64,000 nt of DNA from Candidatus Saccharimonadota bacterium. Lineage in GTDB: Bacteria; Patescibacteriota; Saccharimonadia; Saccharimonadales; Saccharimonadaceae. The translations under genes were made by a program, and so were the position numbers. Every line of letters begins with the position of its first letter. Positions within the stretch are counted from its first letter, which is position 1. This document shows positions 8,906-17,462 of this stretch, in pieces. The stretch covers positions 1 through 64,000 of the forward strand of contig JAQBRV010000001.1 of NCBI GenBank assembly GCA_028286285.1. The letters run 5' to 3'. The notes below the pieces were generated by a model. The model did not search any database, was not told where the DNA came from, and saw only the letters and a list, made by a program, of their open reading frames with translations.

Positions 8906-11737
8906 TTATCGATCAAATTTAATCGACACCTCGTCGTGTTGATTGGCATTCTTACCTCTCAGATCAAGCTTCTCGGGGGGTGATGATGGTGCAGGCTGGG
9001 TGTCTGTAGGTTGCGGGGCAGCGTCTGGCTGCACAGCAGGCTGCGTAAGCGGTGCTGGCGATCCAGATGGCTGCAAGGCCGTAGCTGACGGCTGCATGAC
9101 AGGTGGTGCCGCGGGAGAGGGCTGAGACCCTTGCGTTTTCGTGCCGCCAAGTTGCTGACGCTTCGCGAGCCATTCATCGAGAAATGACGAACCGCCGCCC
9201 GAAGCACCTGGGGCGCTCGCTCCGCTTCCCCCCATGCGTTGCTGCTGGTTCTGGCGCATCTCTTCGAGGCGGGCTTTCTTTTCCGCCTCAGCCTTCCCTA
9301 ACCTGTCAAAGATAGCTTTTTCAACTGTCGCCCGTGGAATTCCGTGTTTCGTGGCCGACAATCGTTTAAGCGCATCACTCAGCTGTTGGTTCGGCTCGCC
9401 CATTGGGGCTATCCAGGACATACTAAACGGTGCTGACGGCACGTTATTGATCATCACACTAGTGACCGACTGGTGATTCGGCATCTTCGTTAAGTCCTCT
9501 TGGTCAAATGTCGGCGAGAACTTCTTGACGAGTATCTCGGCATCCGTTACTCCGATACGGCCAGAGATAACCGTACCGACGTTACCGATAATTGCCTCTC
9601 TGACTTTATCGGTCAGCTGGGTCATAAACTGATTACCAAGCACAAGGTTGAGGTGATATTTTCGAGCCTCAGACAGGATTGATTCAAAGCTCTCCGTCGC
9701 AAAGTTTTGAAACTCATCAACGTAGAGACAGAAGTCCTCCCGCTCGGACTCCGGTATATTAGCTCGCCCCATGGCGGCTGCTTGAAATTTCATCACAAAG
9801 ATAATACCGAGCAATTTGGAGTTCAGCTCACCCATTTTACCCTTTGAAAGGTTAACTAGCAGAATCTTCTTGTTATCCATAATGTCGCGCAAGTTAAAGC
9901 CGCTCTTCGTCTGACCGATGATGTTACGCATAGCATCATTGGAGATAAACGGACCAAATTTCGAGACGACCCAGCTAATCACCTCACCCGATTCGTTGGA
10001 ACGCTTGGAGTCCGGAAATTCCTTGGTCCAGAAATCAAGCACTGTCTGGTCGGTCACATATTTGAGCTTGCTCTTCATAAACTCTTCGTCGATCAATAGC
10101 TTCGGTATATCAATAAACGTGCCGCCGGCAGGATCCGACATGAGAAGTAGCGCGCAGTTTCGGAAGATGTGTTCCAGCCGCGGACCAACGATGCCAGTGT
10201 GCCCTGGGTCGTACAAGCCATAGAGCATATTGATCGACTCCTGCACGAGGAAGTCCTTTTGGTCAGGATGATCAAACTCAAACATATTTAGCCCAATTGG
10301 GTTGCTCATATCGCCTGGGTTAAAGTAGATGACATCTTCGACCCGCTCTTTTGGCACCTTGCCAAGTAGTGCTTCGACGGAGTCTCCATGCGGATCAACG
10401 AAGGCAAAGCCGCGCCCATCCATCATGTCTTGGTAGGCGATATTCTCGAGCAGGACTGATTTACCCGTACCAGTCTGACCGATAATATAGGTGTGTCGTC
10501 GTCGATCGTTCATACTGAGACGAATCGGTTTCTTGATGCCACGGAATTCGTTGTACCCCAGTAAGACGCCTTCGTCCATAACTTGCGTCGGACCATCCAC
10601 CTGCTTGCTCATTTGCCGCTGAACTTGCGATGTAGGGATATTCTTCTGACTCGGCAAATGGAACAGCGTCGCTAGTTCGATACTATTGAGAATATTCTGC
10701 GTTACACCCTGCGGAAAGAAACGGAAGATATAAGCCGTCACCAATTCTTCAATATTACGCGAGACAGTAAATTTGAAGCCATTGTAGGTTGGCGAATCAA
10801 GCAGCGAGAAAGCGGCTACAACATTTTTTAAGAGTGTTTGTGAACGAGCCGCCGTATTGGAAGACACCACCACGCGCACTAGGATTTCGTAGCCCGGATA
10901 GCGCGTCTTCTCTTGGAGTGCCTCAACTGTCTTTTGTTCAAGCGACGATAACTGCTTGTCGTCCACCTTCGCTTTCCCATCTCCCGATTCGGGTGGTTTC
11001 CAGAGAGCCTCCATAATATCTTTTGGAGCAATCATACTAGCAATGCCAGTTTTTTTAATACCTTTATCCTTCGTGATACGATCAGCGGTCGAGACCGAAC
11101 GCTTCGTCCAGCCAGGACTAGCAGGCCTCAGCAGGATCTGTACACCAACGCCGTCTTCTCGACTCGCTGACGAGAGGGCGTTTAACAGTGCCCGAGATGC
11201 ATCCCGTTTTGACTCCTGGTAGGTTTCAATCGGGTAGATATAATCTTTCTTTAGGGTAAATTCTCCCCCGATAGTGCCGCTCAGCTTCCCTGTTTCACTA
11301 AAGATATTGTGTTCCTGAATCTCTTCCAATCGAGCTGACGGGTAGGCGGCGGCGATAGCTTGCCGCACCACATCGACCAGCACCACTGGTACTACGGCAT
11401 AGTAAAGAACCAACCCATCCTTGGCAACAATCTCGAAAGAAAGATGTCGTTGGCCATAAATCCTACTTTTGAAGCCTTTAGTAGCTGTGCTGGCAATGAT
11501 GTTATACATCACTTCTGCCTGTGACAGTACTTCCTCTGTGAGATCACGCTCATCACGACCACCACCGTCGATATCGTCGCTCGACGGTGGCAGATGAATG
11601 ATCATCGGCACCATCTTGAGCCCTCGCTCGTAGTTCTTAGCTTCACGCATTGTCTTTTGGTACTGCATAAATACAAAGATACCCGCGACAGATGCGAGCA
11701 CTAGTACAATAAATCCACTGATAATTACGCCAATCAT
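8906..11737 (-). CDS. VirD4/VirB4-like conjugative ATPase (type IV secretion coupling-protein type)
   Basis: 943 aa with one N-terminal membrane helix (residues ~3-24), as in coupling proteins. A poorly conserved domain runs to residue ~400, followed by a HerA/FtsK-superfamily ATPase. Walker A is GQTGTGKSVLLEN, Walker B is FCLYVDEFQNFA, and FVDPHGD is present. The last ~130 residues are rich in Pro, Gln and Ala and probably disordered. Families like this are widespread in CPR genomes, usually without a full conjugation set, and none is visible here. A role in DNA or protein transfer is inferred. It is followed on the map by two small envelope-type genes on the same strand. Confidence 0.8.
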   Translation of the reverse strand: MIGVIISGFIVLVLASVAGIFVFMQYQKTMREAKNYERGLKMVPMIIHLPPSSDDIDGGGRDERDLTEEVLSQAEVMYNIIASTATKGFKSRIYGQRHLSFEIVAKDGLVLYYAVVPVVLVDVVRQAIAAAYPSARLEEIQEHNIFSETGKLSGTIGGEFTLKKDYIYPIETYQESKRDASRALLNALSSASREDGVGVQILLRPASPGWTKRSVSTADRITKDKGIKKTGIASMIAPKDIMEALWKPPESGDGKAKVDDKQLSSLEQKTVEALQEKTRYPGYEILVRVVVSSNTAARSQTLLKNVVAAFSLLDSPTYNGFKFTVSRNIEELVTAYIFRFFPQGVTQNILNSIELATLFHLPSQKNIPTSQVQRQMSKQVDGPTQVMDEGVLLGYNEFRGIKKPIRLSMNDRRRHTYIIGQTGTGKSVLLENIAYQDMMDGRGFAFVDPHGDSVEALLGKVPKERVEDVIYFNPGDMSNPIGLNMFEFDHPDQKDFLVQESINMLYGLYDPGHTGIVGPRLEHIFRNCALLLMSDPAGGTFIDIPKLLIDEEFMKSKLKYVTDQTVLDFWTKEFPDSKRSNESGEVISWVVSKFGPFISNDAMRNIIGQTKSGFNLRDIMDNKKILLVNLSKGKMGELNSKLLGIIFVMKFQAAAMGRANIPESEREDFCLYVDEFQNFATESFESILSEARKYHLNLVLGNQFMTQLTDKVREAIIGNVGTVISGRIGVTDAEILVKKFSPTFDQEDLTKMPNHQSVTSVMINNVPSAPFSMSWIAPMGEPNQQLSDALKRLSATKHGIPRATVEKAIFDRLGKAEAEKKARLEEMRQNQQQRMGGSGASAPGASGGGSSFLDEWLAKRQQLGGTKTQGSQPSPAAPPVMQPSATALQPSGSPAPLTQPAVQPDAAPQPTDTQPAPSSPPEKLDLRGKNANQHDEVSIKFDR

Positions 11738-11761: not shown

Positions 11762-12187
11762 TTACTCGATGACACCCAGCTCCTTCCCATAGCGCTTCCT
11801 TAAATAATCAGCCTGTAATTTTCCCACTTCCCGCTCGCGACGATGCGGATCGTCCCTGGTCTCTGCGATAATCTTTTTCGCATTATCGACCCACTCTTTT
11901 TCGATCAGATCGTCGTCATTAGCGGTGAGTGGCACACCGGCTACAACCTGTGAGCTTGCGTCGTCGGCAATTGGTGCCGGAATCGCTGGAGCCACAATTG
12001 GTGTCGGTAAGACAGGGGCTGCATTGACTGCAACGGGTGTTGCCTCGCCCTGTTGCTCCATTGGCTTCTCGGCTCGCTCAAACCCTGTTTCAGGGTTTGG
12101 TGGAAGCGGTAACGACTCTGGAGTTCGACTCTGTTCGTTAGGCGCACGCTCGAGATTATTATTTGGTGCAGGCAGCTTAGGTTCCAT
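11762..12187 (-). CDS. Hypothetical proline/alanine-rich protein
   Basis: 141 aa. Residues 1-~85 are a low-complexity Pro/Ala/Glu-rich segment. The C-terminal ~50 residues are charged and helical (DDLIEKEWVDNAKKIIAETRDDPHRRE) and resemble a small conserved Saccharibacteria domain of unknown function. An extended -10, TGC-TATAAT, ends 7 nt before the ATG, so the mRNA is probably leaderless. It lies 24 nt upstream of the VirD4/VirB4-like gene and may form a unit with it. Confidence 0.7.
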   Translation of the reverse strand: MEPKLPAPNNNLERAPNEQSRTPESLPLPPNPETGFERAEKPMEQQGEATPVAVNAAPVLPTPIVAPAIPAPIADDASSQVVAGVPLTANDDDLIEKEWVDNAKKIIAETRDDPHRREREVGKLQADYLRKRYGKELGVIE

Positions 12188-12217: not shown

Positions 12218-12604
12218 CTATGCAGTTCTTTTTGCGATATAGACGCAGCCAATTATCGTAAAAAGAGCTACTAGGCCGCATTCATATACCCCTATACCGC
12301 CGACCGACTGCATACCCACAAGCATAACAGGACTGAGCGACACTACGGAAGAAAAATAGTAAGCCCGAGATAGGGGCATTGGTTGCATCGGTCGTCTCAC
12401 TGTAAATGGTGACAACAATTTTACAACGATGTGCTGAATCCCCCAGATCAAGAAAGTTAGCGCACTAAAGAGCATAATATACAGACAAAGAAAAACCACT
12501 AGTATTCCTAATGGCCCTGCCTGCGATGGAGTTGAGGTGGTGACAAAAAATAGCAACACACTTGCTGCTATCACTCCCGCCGTACCAACTACCCTTGCCA
12601 ACAT
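12218..12604 (-). CDS. Hypothetical four-helix membrane protein
   Basis: 128 aa with about four hydrophobic helices and a short basic loop (FTVRRPMQP) in the middle. No known domain recognised. The -10 element TGG-TATAGT (12617-12612) ends 7 nt before the ATG, which predicts a leaderless mRNA and fixes this start. Another frame on the same strand (12465-12776) overlaps its 5' half. Confidence 0.65.
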   Translation of the reverse strand: MLARVVGTAGVIAASVLLFFVTTSTPSQAGPLGILVVFLCLYIMLFSALTFLIWGIQHIVVKLLSPFTVRRPMQPMPLSRAYYFSSVVSLSPVMLVGMQSVGGIGVYECGLVALFTIIGCVYIAKRTA

Positions 12605-12776
12605 ATCTATAACTATACCACTTCACATTAAAAAAGTTCTTGAGAGCCTGAGCGATAAACCATAGCGCTAAAGTCGCGACATCCGCCGCTAAAAAATAAA
12701 AGGGCGCGTGCTTCTTTAGCAGTTTACCGCTCGAGGCAACTGACCGCTCCAGCCGAAGCCGGGGCATATTGTACAT
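12465..12776 (-). CDS. Doubtful overlapping ORF
   Basis: 103 aa in a different frame, overlapping the first ~140 nt of the 128-aa membrane protein gene. The first ~45 residues look protein-like (basic start, then LALWFIAQALKNFF), while the rest looks like random reading of the overlapping gene. It could be a short real peptide, a decayed gene or chance. No ribosome-binding site is seen. Confidence 0.2.
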   Translation of the reverse strand: MYNMPRLRLERSVASSGKLLKKHAPFYFLAADVATLALWFIAQALKNFFNVKWYSYRYVGKGSWYGGSDSSKCVAIFCHHLNSIAGRAIRNTSGFSLSVYYAL

Positions 12777-12791
12777 GCATTGGATGTTCCG

Positions 12792-13024
12792 CGGTACACC
12801 GAGTAGTCACACTATTACCAGAGGTAACAAGGTTTAACTCGGTGTATCGGTACTAGTTCAATGCGCGCTCAAACGCCTGGATATCCTAAGATAGGACATT
12901 TTGGCGGAGCATCGATAACGCCAGCGTAGTGGTATATGAAGAAAAGGTGCGTGAGTTGCGGATGCAACTCAATGTTTTCATATACCCGTGCCGTTATCGA
13001 CTTTCCGTCGAAGCAGCGTTTCGG
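12792..13024. ncRNA. Candidate structured RNA, family not recognised (strand uncertain)
   Basis: Five non-overlapping helices can be drawn. H1 is 12792-12803 with 12838-12849 (12 bp, one G-U if plus), with an inner TTACC/GGTAA hairpin. H2 is 12874-12877/12903-12906 enclosing 12881-12888/12892-12899. H3 is 12912-12920/12992-13000 (9 bp). Inside H3 is 12931-12940/12977-12986 (10 bp), and inside that 12953-12959/12964-12970 (7 bp, loop GGAT). There is no long ORF. Single wobble pairs point to opposite strands in H1 and H2. A minus promoter candidate lies at 13084-13112; on the plus strand a T-rich stretch follows at 13045-13070. It does not match tmRNA, RNase P, SRP RNA or 5S. Confidence 0.55.
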
Positions 13025-13083
13025 TCAGATCTCAAATTGTTAAGGTTTTTTGCTTTTGTTTGTTTCTATAAAAGCTTGTTCTT

Positions 13084-13112
13084 ACCATAGCATAGGCATA
13101 TCGGTGGGTCAA
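13084..13112 (-). promoter_or_regulatory. Candidate minus-strand promoter for the structured RNA
   Basis: TTGACC (13112-13107), a 17-nt spacer and TATGGT (13089-13084) on the minus strand give a predicted start near 13077, reading into the multi-hairpin region. The -10 is only a 4/6 match. Confidence 0.35.
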
Positions 13113-13115
13113 TAT

Positions 13116-13434
13116 AAAACGATGTATTTGTAGTAGGTTATAAATACAACGCATGATATAACAGATCGTTTTCAAACAATTAAATATTATTCAATCGTTG
13201 TCCTTAAAACAATGCTTGATTATTATCACATCTAATAATGTCCCGTAGTTGGTACGGCGAGCATGCTTGATAGCCTGAGCTCTGCATCCCTCGCCTTGCC
13301 TACCACGTTCCATGTATCGAGCCGGCTCAACCAGTCATGAAAAAGGATGCTTTGCCCTGCATGATTAAGTCAGAGCCAGTCATAGTGCTTAGATCCACAT
13401 ATTGATGAAGTGTGCGGGGTCTGTCCTTTGCACT
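13116..13434. other. Further hairpin series in the gene-free region
   Basis: No convincing ORF. Nested inverted repeats follow one another. They are 13116-13129 with 13142-13148 and 13166-13172 (7+7 bp), an imperfect long stem about 13184-13228, GGTA..GGCGAG..ATGC (13251-13266) with 13284-13304, GGCTC..TCATG with CATGA..GAGCC (13324-13377), and TAGTGC/GCACTA (13383-13434). It may continue the RNA candidate at 12792-13024 or be a separate element. From 13435 to 13753 I see nothing convincing. Confidence 0.35.
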
Positions 13435-13753: not shown

Positions 13754-13782
13754 TTGACACAAGCGCTATGAAGACATATTAT
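13754..13782 (+). promoter_or_regulatory. Strong promoter of a small RNA candidate
   Basis: Perfect TTGACA (13754-13759), a 17-nt spacer and TATTAT (13777-13782) predict a start near 13789. No plausible ORF follows before the terminator at 13854-13887. Confidence 0.75.
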
Positions 13783-13788
13783 AGGGGT

Positions 13789-13887
13789 AGCTCCTGAATA
13801 AATAAATTATACAGAAGCCAAAAATAAACAAGAAATCAAAAAACTCCACACGAAACAACCACTACTCGCAGGTGGTTGTTTTATTTT
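13789..13887 (+). ncRNA. Candidate ~100-nt small RNA with intrinsic terminator
   Basis: The segment is bounded by a consensus promoter and a 9-bp terminator hairpin (13854-13862 with 13872-13880, then TTATTTT). The body is A-rich and unstructured, has no ATG, and begins with CTCCT (13791-13795), which could pair with AGGAG ribosome-binding sites. It converges with tmRNA, whose own terminator is at 13914-13937. The function is unknown. Confidence 0.55.
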
Positions 13888-13913
13888 GCCCTTTTCTCCT
13901 ATTTTCGTAGCTT

Positions 13914-13949: not shown

Positions 13950-14350
13950 TGGTGGAGCTGCGGGGCACTGCCCCCCGGTCCAAAAGGTAACGGATTATTC
14001 GTCTACAAGCATAGTTTGTCTTAGATCTTTACAATCCATTGAGCTTAGAAACAAACATAAATGTTCAATGGATTGCGTGGAAAGGTTTCCTTTAGTATAC
14101 GCCACTGCGCATATACCAAGTAAGCGGCATAAATATAACACCACGAGCCACTATGTCGCCTGGCAGCAAGTGATGATCGAGCGTATTAGGCTGCGATTGG
14201 CGCAAAAGCAAGTGTAGGAACGCTCAAAGCGCTCTTTAGCTTAGCAAATGCTAGTTTAATTGGGTTTGCAATTAAAAATATACGTACGTGTATGGTCGGC
14301 TTGCAAAATAATCTGTTAATGTCCTCTTGTCGAAAGCTAATTTCAGCCCC
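13950..14350 (-). ncRNA. ssrA: tmRNA (transfer-messenger RNA)
   Basis: It rescues stalled ribosomes. The minus strand begins GGGGCTGA..TTCGAC (5' end at 14350) and ends CAGCTCCACCA (13950). The 7-bp acceptor stem forms (GGGGCTG/CAGCTCC, one G-U). The tag frame opens with GCA AAC at 14269 and stops at 14186. It encodes 27 residues starting ANPIKLAFAK and ending LAFAPIAA, longer than the common ~10-residue tags. The T-stem CGGGG/CCCCG closes the loop GGCAGTG, unlike the canonical TTCRANY loop. Length is ~401 nt. Confidence 0.93.
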
Positions 14351-17090: not shown

Positions 17091-17129
17091 ACTAAAATAT
17101 CCGCTCTCTAACGAGGCGGATATTTTAGT
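17091..17129. terminator. Hairpin shared by the rplT and rnpB ends
   Basis: A 14-bp perfect stem (17091-17104 with 17116-17129) with an 11-nt loop lies between the convergent rplT operon and rnpB. It has no clean U-tract, so it may act as a bidirectional terminator or 3' protection. Confidence 0.6.
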
Positions 17130-17462
17130 AGGCAGCCCGTCTGTAAGCCGGGTTCTGTCGTGGACGATCATCTATCTAGTCCGCCAGTTGCCTGGCGGAT
17201 CAAGCGGTTATCGGCCTGCGGACGAGCCGTCCTTATGTGCAGACCTCCTTGCAGCCGACAGGGTTTACCTCCTCTGTATGTCACCATACATCGCTGTGAG
17301 CTCTTACCTCACTCGTTTCACCTTTGCCCCCGAAGGGGTAGTTTCGTTTCTGTGGCACTTTCCCTAGGGTCACCCCCGGTCGCCGTTAGCGACTGTCGTG
17401 CCCTTCGCTGCCCGGACTTTCCTCCCCGAACAAGTCGGGGCGACCGTCTAACGAACTGCCTA
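17129..17462 (-). ncRNA. rnpB: RNase P RNA (class A)
   Basis: The catalytic RNA of tRNA 5' maturation. The minus strand contains the near-invariant GAGGAAAGTCCGGGC near the 5' end and ACAGAACCCGGCTTACAG near the 3' end. The ends pair as P1 (TAGGCAG/CTGCCTA). Length ~334 nt. A TATACT -10 lies at 17469-17474, overlapping the end of the Nudix-RNase HI gene. Confidence 0.95.

Follow-up and report, generated by a model that had tools for sequence, protein, structure and literature searches.

Here, we show that positions 12792-13024 of the window, by which we mean the whole 64,000-nt stretch of Candidatus Saccharimonadota DNA analysed, are the middle of an RNA gene of ~440 nt on the minus strand, which is conserved, has a covarying structure and a promoter of its own, and matches no known family. 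We consider it probable that this is a structured RNA gene that is transcribed independently and acts in trans. It appears to be a previously undescribed RNA of Saccharibacteria and is a candidate core RNA; no description of it was found in the literature searched, the coverage of which was partial.

The initial annotation had confined a strongly base-paired RNA candidate to 12792-13024, and these boundaries proved too narrow. Most of the 49 loci identified with nhmmer gave near full-length matches to the RNA gene, and conserved sequence in the aligned homologues spans from ~13112, in the promoter, to ~12630, just before the TATAGT -10 box and start codon of the downstream gene (Table 1). Judged from the sequence, the transcript would start at ~13077 and have its 3' end within the T run at 12635-12630, the U-rich segment after P8 being a probable intrinsic termination site. 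The helices that had been described are all present, i.e., the 12912-13000 arm, which contains a 10-bp GGTATATGAA/TTCATATACC helix and a GAGTTGC/GCAACTC helix, the 12792-12849 stem, and the 12874-12906 composite hairpin. The claim of strong base pairing held as well, as the z-scores for folding of positions 12780-13030 were -7.4 (minus strand) and -5.1 (plus strand), and 0/200 dinucleotide shuffles of either strand were equally stable. As stated in the initial annotation, the stretch holds no credible reading frame. An ORF at 12465-12776 (minus strand) was rejected as a gene because it runs into the conserved RNA and because the start that is conserved downstream lies at 12604.

The strand, previously left open on the grounds that wobble pairs point both ways, can be assigned. 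RNA tolerates G-U pairs and does not tolerate A-C pairs; when alignments A1, A2, A3 and P6 are read as minus-strand RNA, their paired columns contain 158 + 45 + 45 + 33 = 281 G-U cells versus 31 + 15 + 8 + 6 = 60 A-C cells. Judged by these counts and by the conserved promoter, the RNA strand is resolved as minus. The promoter had been noticed as a minus-strand candidate and turned out to be conserved across homologues from many genera: its extended -10 reads TGCTATGGT, and TTGAc...TGCTAnnnTa is kept in nearly all of ~30 aligned homologues.

Table 1 Features of the predicted RNA gene and its immediate neighbour (P, paired element; positions are those of the window).
Feature	Position	Strand	Basis or remark
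Whole RNA gene, predicted transcript ~440 nt	12630-13077	minus	nhmmer, alignment, covariation
Promoter: -35 TTGACC, 17-nt spacer, extended -10 TGC-TATGGT	13084-13112	minus	consensus scan
P1, 5' hairpin GCUUUU/AAAAGC with A/C-rich loop AUAGAAACAAAC	13052-13075	minus	conserved in homologues
boxA-like element ACCUUAACAAUUU, after P1	13034-13046	minus	sequence pattern
P2, 5' half CUGACCG of an optional long-range helix	13022-13028	minus	partner CGGUCAG at 12740-12746
P3a	5' arm 13004-13012, 3' arm 12900-12908	minus	88.9% of cells paired
P3b, 5' arm UCGAUAACGGCAC	5' arm 12988-13000, 3' arm 12912-12924	minus	93.4% of cells paired
P3 apical hairpin GAGUUGC-AUCC-GCAACUC	12953-12970	minus	covariation-scan pairs 106-123 and 108-121
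Conserved ACGCACCUU after P3 apical hairpin	12944-12952	minus	conserved sequence
P4, CGCC (12903-12906)/GGCG (12874-12877)	12874-12906	minus	arm complement search and covariation
P6 arm, AGUAC (12850-12854), stem-loop, GGAA (12787-12790)	12787-12854	minus	conserved motif and covariation
P7 hairpin GCCCCGGC-UUCG-GCUGGAGC	12746-12765	minus	96.9% of cells paired
GGUCAGU, single-stranded, between P7 and P8	12739-12745	minus	invariant or nearly invariant columns
P8, long terminal hairpin	12646-12737	minus	outer arms ~12723-12737 and 12646-12660
P8 inner core motif CGCGCC/GCGGCGGAU	12703-12708 and 12681-12689	minus	
U-rich 3' end after P8	12630-12645	minus	from sequence
Downstream gene, 128-aa membrane protein	12218-12604	minus	neighbour outside the RNA; start 12604 conserved in relatives

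Covariation was sought in homologous intergenic regions, as had been proposed along with the initial annotation, and the signal found there confirms, at the level of sequence comparison, a conserved structured RNA gene. Three sets of homologues were used in turn, comprising ~30 loci, then 48 full-length homologues (loci below 100 bits excluded), and then a compact set of 14 homologues from other families. In the set of 48, the top 19 pairs by mutual information with APC are all canonical and stacked in helices, falling in P3, P4, P6, P7 and P8; the scan was computed without any given structure and is free of structure-derived bias. Structures for the pair counts came from RNAalifold run on the same alignments followed by hand-editing, so that the proportions of paired cells lean towards them, at 90.0% for the P7/P8 alignment (two-sided change in 24/33 pairs), 91.6% for the P3 alignment (16/20 pairs) and 90.8% for the compact set (17/31 pairs). 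The P7/P8 alignment is above each of 500 shuffles whichever measure is used, and above all slid versions, and no shuffle equals the compact set. For P3, all 500 shuffles are exceeded on four measures and 1/500 equals the observed number of further pair types, and structure counts of both alignments lie above those of all slid versions. Two loci each were left out of A1 and A2, and 3/25 hairpins out of the P8 alignment. The suggestion that the nested helices were not a product of chance is thus borne out, given that covariation of P3 and P6 in homologues excludes it, and compact homologues of other families, through their own paired changes, independently confirm P7/P8.

At the level of single helices, two-sided change was seen in 7/8 pairs of P3a and 9/12 pairs of P3b. 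Within the P3 arm, the inner helix of 10 bp is variable between homologues and poorly alignable. P7 shows two-sided change in 4/7 pairs and was confirmed in the compact set, and the outer helix of P8, with 92.3% of cells paired, does so in 13/16 pairs (12/18 in the compact set). Pairs of the P6 stem rank among the strongest covarying ones in the unsupervised scan, and the AGTAC/GGAA sequences that bound P6 are exact in 39/48 homologues; this internal loop resembles the loop E or sarcin-ricin type, a resemblance only. The A-rich loop of P1 hardly varies among homologues. P2 was kept as optional, its extended complementarity being present in roughly 20/48 homologues and absent from the rest.

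P3a and P4 cannot coexist because both use the same strand. The reverse complement of the P4 arm occurs downstream in 30/48 homologues compared with 4.9 expected, both arms having changed in some, and one P4 pair, 12904-12876, ranks with the strongest in the mutual-information scan. The P3a/P4 competition, which was examined in the window's family, suggests that the RNA of this family may switch between two folds.

The locus had been described as an unassigned ncRNA beside ssrA, and unassigned it stays: compared with Rfam 15, it gave no match at the gathering score and chance-level scores only up to E = 10, so no known family was matched. When the homologue sets were scanned against Rfam, only neighbouring tmRNA and tRNA genes matched. 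Within the window, RF00023 (tmRNA) matches only 13950-14350 and RF00010 (RNase P RNA class A) only 17128-17459, both on the minus strand. In the window's family, the RNA and tmRNA are adjacent stable RNA genes that share a strand; the RNA differs from tmRNA in that neither a tRNA-like domain nor a tag reading frame was recognised in it. We noticed that ARAGORN missed the tmRNA at 13950-14350, which Rfam finds at 97.8 bits. A 6S identity was rejected, with no RF00013 match in the whole genome (the control search was positive in 8/14 genomes) and no bubble-helix fold, i.e., no single long helix with a central bubble; what the RNA could have in common with 6S is a candidate role as a global regulator in a genome where 6S itself was not detected. 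SRP RNA was likewise rejected, as neither RF00169 nor RF01854 matched in this genome and no SRP54/FtsY-type GTPase was found in it; many CPR bacteria have been reported to lack SRP subunits (PMC8080830). It is therefore highly improbable that the RNA has diverged far from a known family, e.g., as a second tmRNA-like RNA, SRP RNA, 6S or a riboswitch: adjacency to tmRNA and the missing SRP RNA and 6S would fit, but neither the window nor any homologue set scanned had an Rfam match above gathering, and an SRP RNA would have no partner protein here.

Other candidate identities were examined as well. Hfq was found neither in this genome nor in 20 relatives, and a typical Hfq-dependent sRNA is unlikely because Hfq is absent from these 21 genomes. 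A phage origin was rejected, positions 12700-13250 having no match in a phage collection and the exact arm pattern being absent from viral contigs. The genome contains no second copies of the RNA beyond chance, and a pairing target sought in the window for GGUCAGUC, namely GACTGACC, was found twice, which is the chance level. OLE, GOLLD, ROOL and raiA, which are large structured ncRNAs of bacteria, resemble this RNA in being hundreds of bases long, elaborately structured and strongly conserved; unlike these, it is without an Rfam match and has a compact form of ~190-230 nt in other families.

A second conserved small RNA gene was observed nearby on the plus strand at 13754-13890, ~100 nt long, with a near-consensus promoter (TTGACA-17-TATTAT), a GGGGU/ACUCC closing stem, a hairpin (GCUCCUG/CAGAAGC), and a terminator hairpin positioned such that it flanks the tmRNA on its 3' side as well. 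It is present in most family loci, mostly at 74-83% identity with some compensatory changes, and had no Rfam match above gathering.

The element after P1 was read as boxA, by sequence, because of its likeness to the known boxA of rRNA leaders. It is found in 46/48 family homologues. A boxA-like ACTTTGACAATTT also lies at 1204-1216 on the minus strand, ~65 bases ahead of the 16S rRNA gene, within its leader. The ACYTTRACAATTT pattern occurs exactly twice in the 64-kb window against 0.03 expected, an expectation that is post hoc as the pattern was written after comparing both sites. The putative boxA after P1 thus matches the 16S-leader copy, as counted in the window's family; boxA-like sequences in loci outside the order (e.g., UUGUUCUUUAUA) were spotted by eye. 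Besides this pattern, the RNA and the rRNA leader have in common an untranslated structured transcript, whereas the RNA is unlinked to rRNA genes and continues into a distinct conserved fold with a terminal hairpin of its own. A regulatory decoy that tunes rRNA synthesis, by titrating NusB/S10 through boxA or RNA polymerase in the manner of 6S, would explain why the boxA-like pattern in the window is common only to the RNA and the 16S leader, and would suit a genome in which 6S was not found by a search whose control succeeded elsewhere. We judge it quite unlikely, considering that boxA is also an ordinary antitermination element, that the RNA has no 6S family match, and that P3, P6 and P8, much of the conserved structure, would be superfluous for a simple decoy.

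Within the order, blastn of the region returned matches in 89/295 same-family genomes. Three models were built, the E-values of which are rough. R1, covering P7/P8 and built from the family, matched in 128/393 order genomes, and R2, built on the compact form, in 171/393; their union comprises at least 256/393 order genomes. This number is probably a lower bound because in genus g2 R1 is weak in some genomes, where the RNA can be seen by eye, and missing from others. Other families have a compact version of the RNA, which measures ~190-230 nt in most of the loci inspected and retains P8, P7-GGUCAGUC, and P1 together with the A-rich loop. The piece first described (P3, P4, P6) is therefore an elaboration of the window's family and not the core, while the wider core, consisting of P1 with the A-rich loop, P7-GGUCAGU and hairpin P8, lies outside the coordinates originally given. 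Scanned for an exact pattern of the core, 84,980 species genomes yielded 111 stretches; among the 80 matches listed, all but 7 were labelled Saccharibacteria, Saccharimonadales, Saccharimonas, Patescibacteria or bacterium MAGs, and the seven scattered ones correspond approximately to the chance handful expected by our own estimate. The initial proposal of a Saccharibacteria-specific ncRNA hence stands in so far as the RNA is order-wide in Saccharibacteria, and may fail in so far as there are likely homologues in other families of Patescibacteria.

The genomic position of the RNA is constant within the order, between comM on the opposite strand (found in most loci that extend far enough) and a small membrane-protein gene, mostly of ~110-130 aa. 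This constancy, which we count against the trans-acting reading, also fits a cis role, namely a leader or attenuator of the downstream membrane-protein operon in which P8 would be a terminator regulated by the P3a/P4 switch. We consider such a leader unlikely. The same gene type does follow across the order and the end of P8 is near the start codon, but the downstream gene in the window's family carries its own TATAGT -10 directly before the ATG, and several divergent genera have a further hairpin and T run between the RNA and that gene; the separate -10 and the extra terminators both argue for a separate transcription unit. Similarly, the conserved, mutually exclusive pairings that an attenuator would use were seen in the window's family only, and candidate homologues in other Patescibacteria precede unrelated genes. 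As a separate observation, two small proteins encoded at 11762-12187 and 12218-12604 (minus strand), in the interval that separates the RNA from a VirB4/TraG-like ATPase (8906-11737), are conserved and without a Pfam match; divergent families have homologues of them in the same arrangement.

Extension of the RNA across Patescibacteria is less secure and is argued from motifs and neighbourhoods. R3, a 60-position model of P8, had matches in other families of the phylum. An A-rich motif lies within 360 nt upstream of 10/19 non-order matches compared with a 2.4% background (p ~5 × 10−12), a p-value that is optimistic, given that several of the loci are related and that the motif was chosen with the loci already read. 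The model had been trained on four of the 19 sites (L132, L134, L135, L138), two of them with the motif; without these the count is 8/15. Weak model matches at L124 and L144, which look like coding sequence, and at L141 and L157, which have no A-rich motif, were dropped. The candidate homologues, consisting of P8 and A-rich motifs, adjoin different genes: by gene names assigned by eye, four f81 loci have a recA-like gene upstream and TraR/DksA- and LspA-like genes downstream, f61, f161 and f170 have DksA/LspA-like neighbours too, and a pheS-like gene lies downstream in f64 and f39. Such varied neighbours speak for a trans-acting RNA that is transcribed on its own, rather than for a leader.

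In non-Saccharibacteria loci, a long-range ACUGUUC/GAAYGGU helix was picked by eye and then compared with 200 shuffles per pair in 8 of 9 loci, the second strand of L149 being outside the pattern. It exceeded the shuffles at L151, L132 and L146 (14, 13 and 13 bp, p = 0.0; the latter two belong to one genus) and at L150 (9 bp, p = 0.005), was borderline at L142 (9 bp, p = 0.04), and did not exceed them at L143, L145 and L148 (p = 0.35, 0.46 and 0.685). With 3/8 measured loci no better than shuffles, the helix was set aside as phylum-wide support. Whether the RNA is a phylum-wide housekeeping RNA of Patescibacteria, with A-rich P1-type segments, P8 and perhaps a boxA-like element, its own promoter, family-dependent neighbours, and a bistable P3a/P4 in the window's family, we regard as an even question.

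For the trans-acting RNA gene that we favour, we infer boxA-assisted transcription, termination after P8, and a ribonucleoprotein-type role in trans. RNA polymerase would start at the extended -10 promoter, and NusB/S10 would bind boxA on the nascent RNA, allowing the untranslated folded transcript to be completed as for rRNA. Transcription would end after P8, and the RNA may then act in trans as a stable housekeeping RNA of the ribonucleoprotein type; likely surfaces for binding are the GGUCAGU linker and the A-rich P1 loop, a loop that other families keep in their compact form. The competition of P3a and P4 for one strand in the window's family may make that version a switch between two folds.

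If this holds, a large and mostly uncultured share of bacterial diversity would carry a conserved RNA gene outside Rfam, which would join the very few RNA genes retained in these streamlined genomes. The boxA link leads to the testable hypothesis that rRNA-type antitermination operates outside rRNA operons in these bacteria, and the bistable P3a/P4 is a further specific, testable claim. The RNA would also offer a genetic and biochemical handle on the biology of Saccharibacteria, which are ultrasmall and parasitic.
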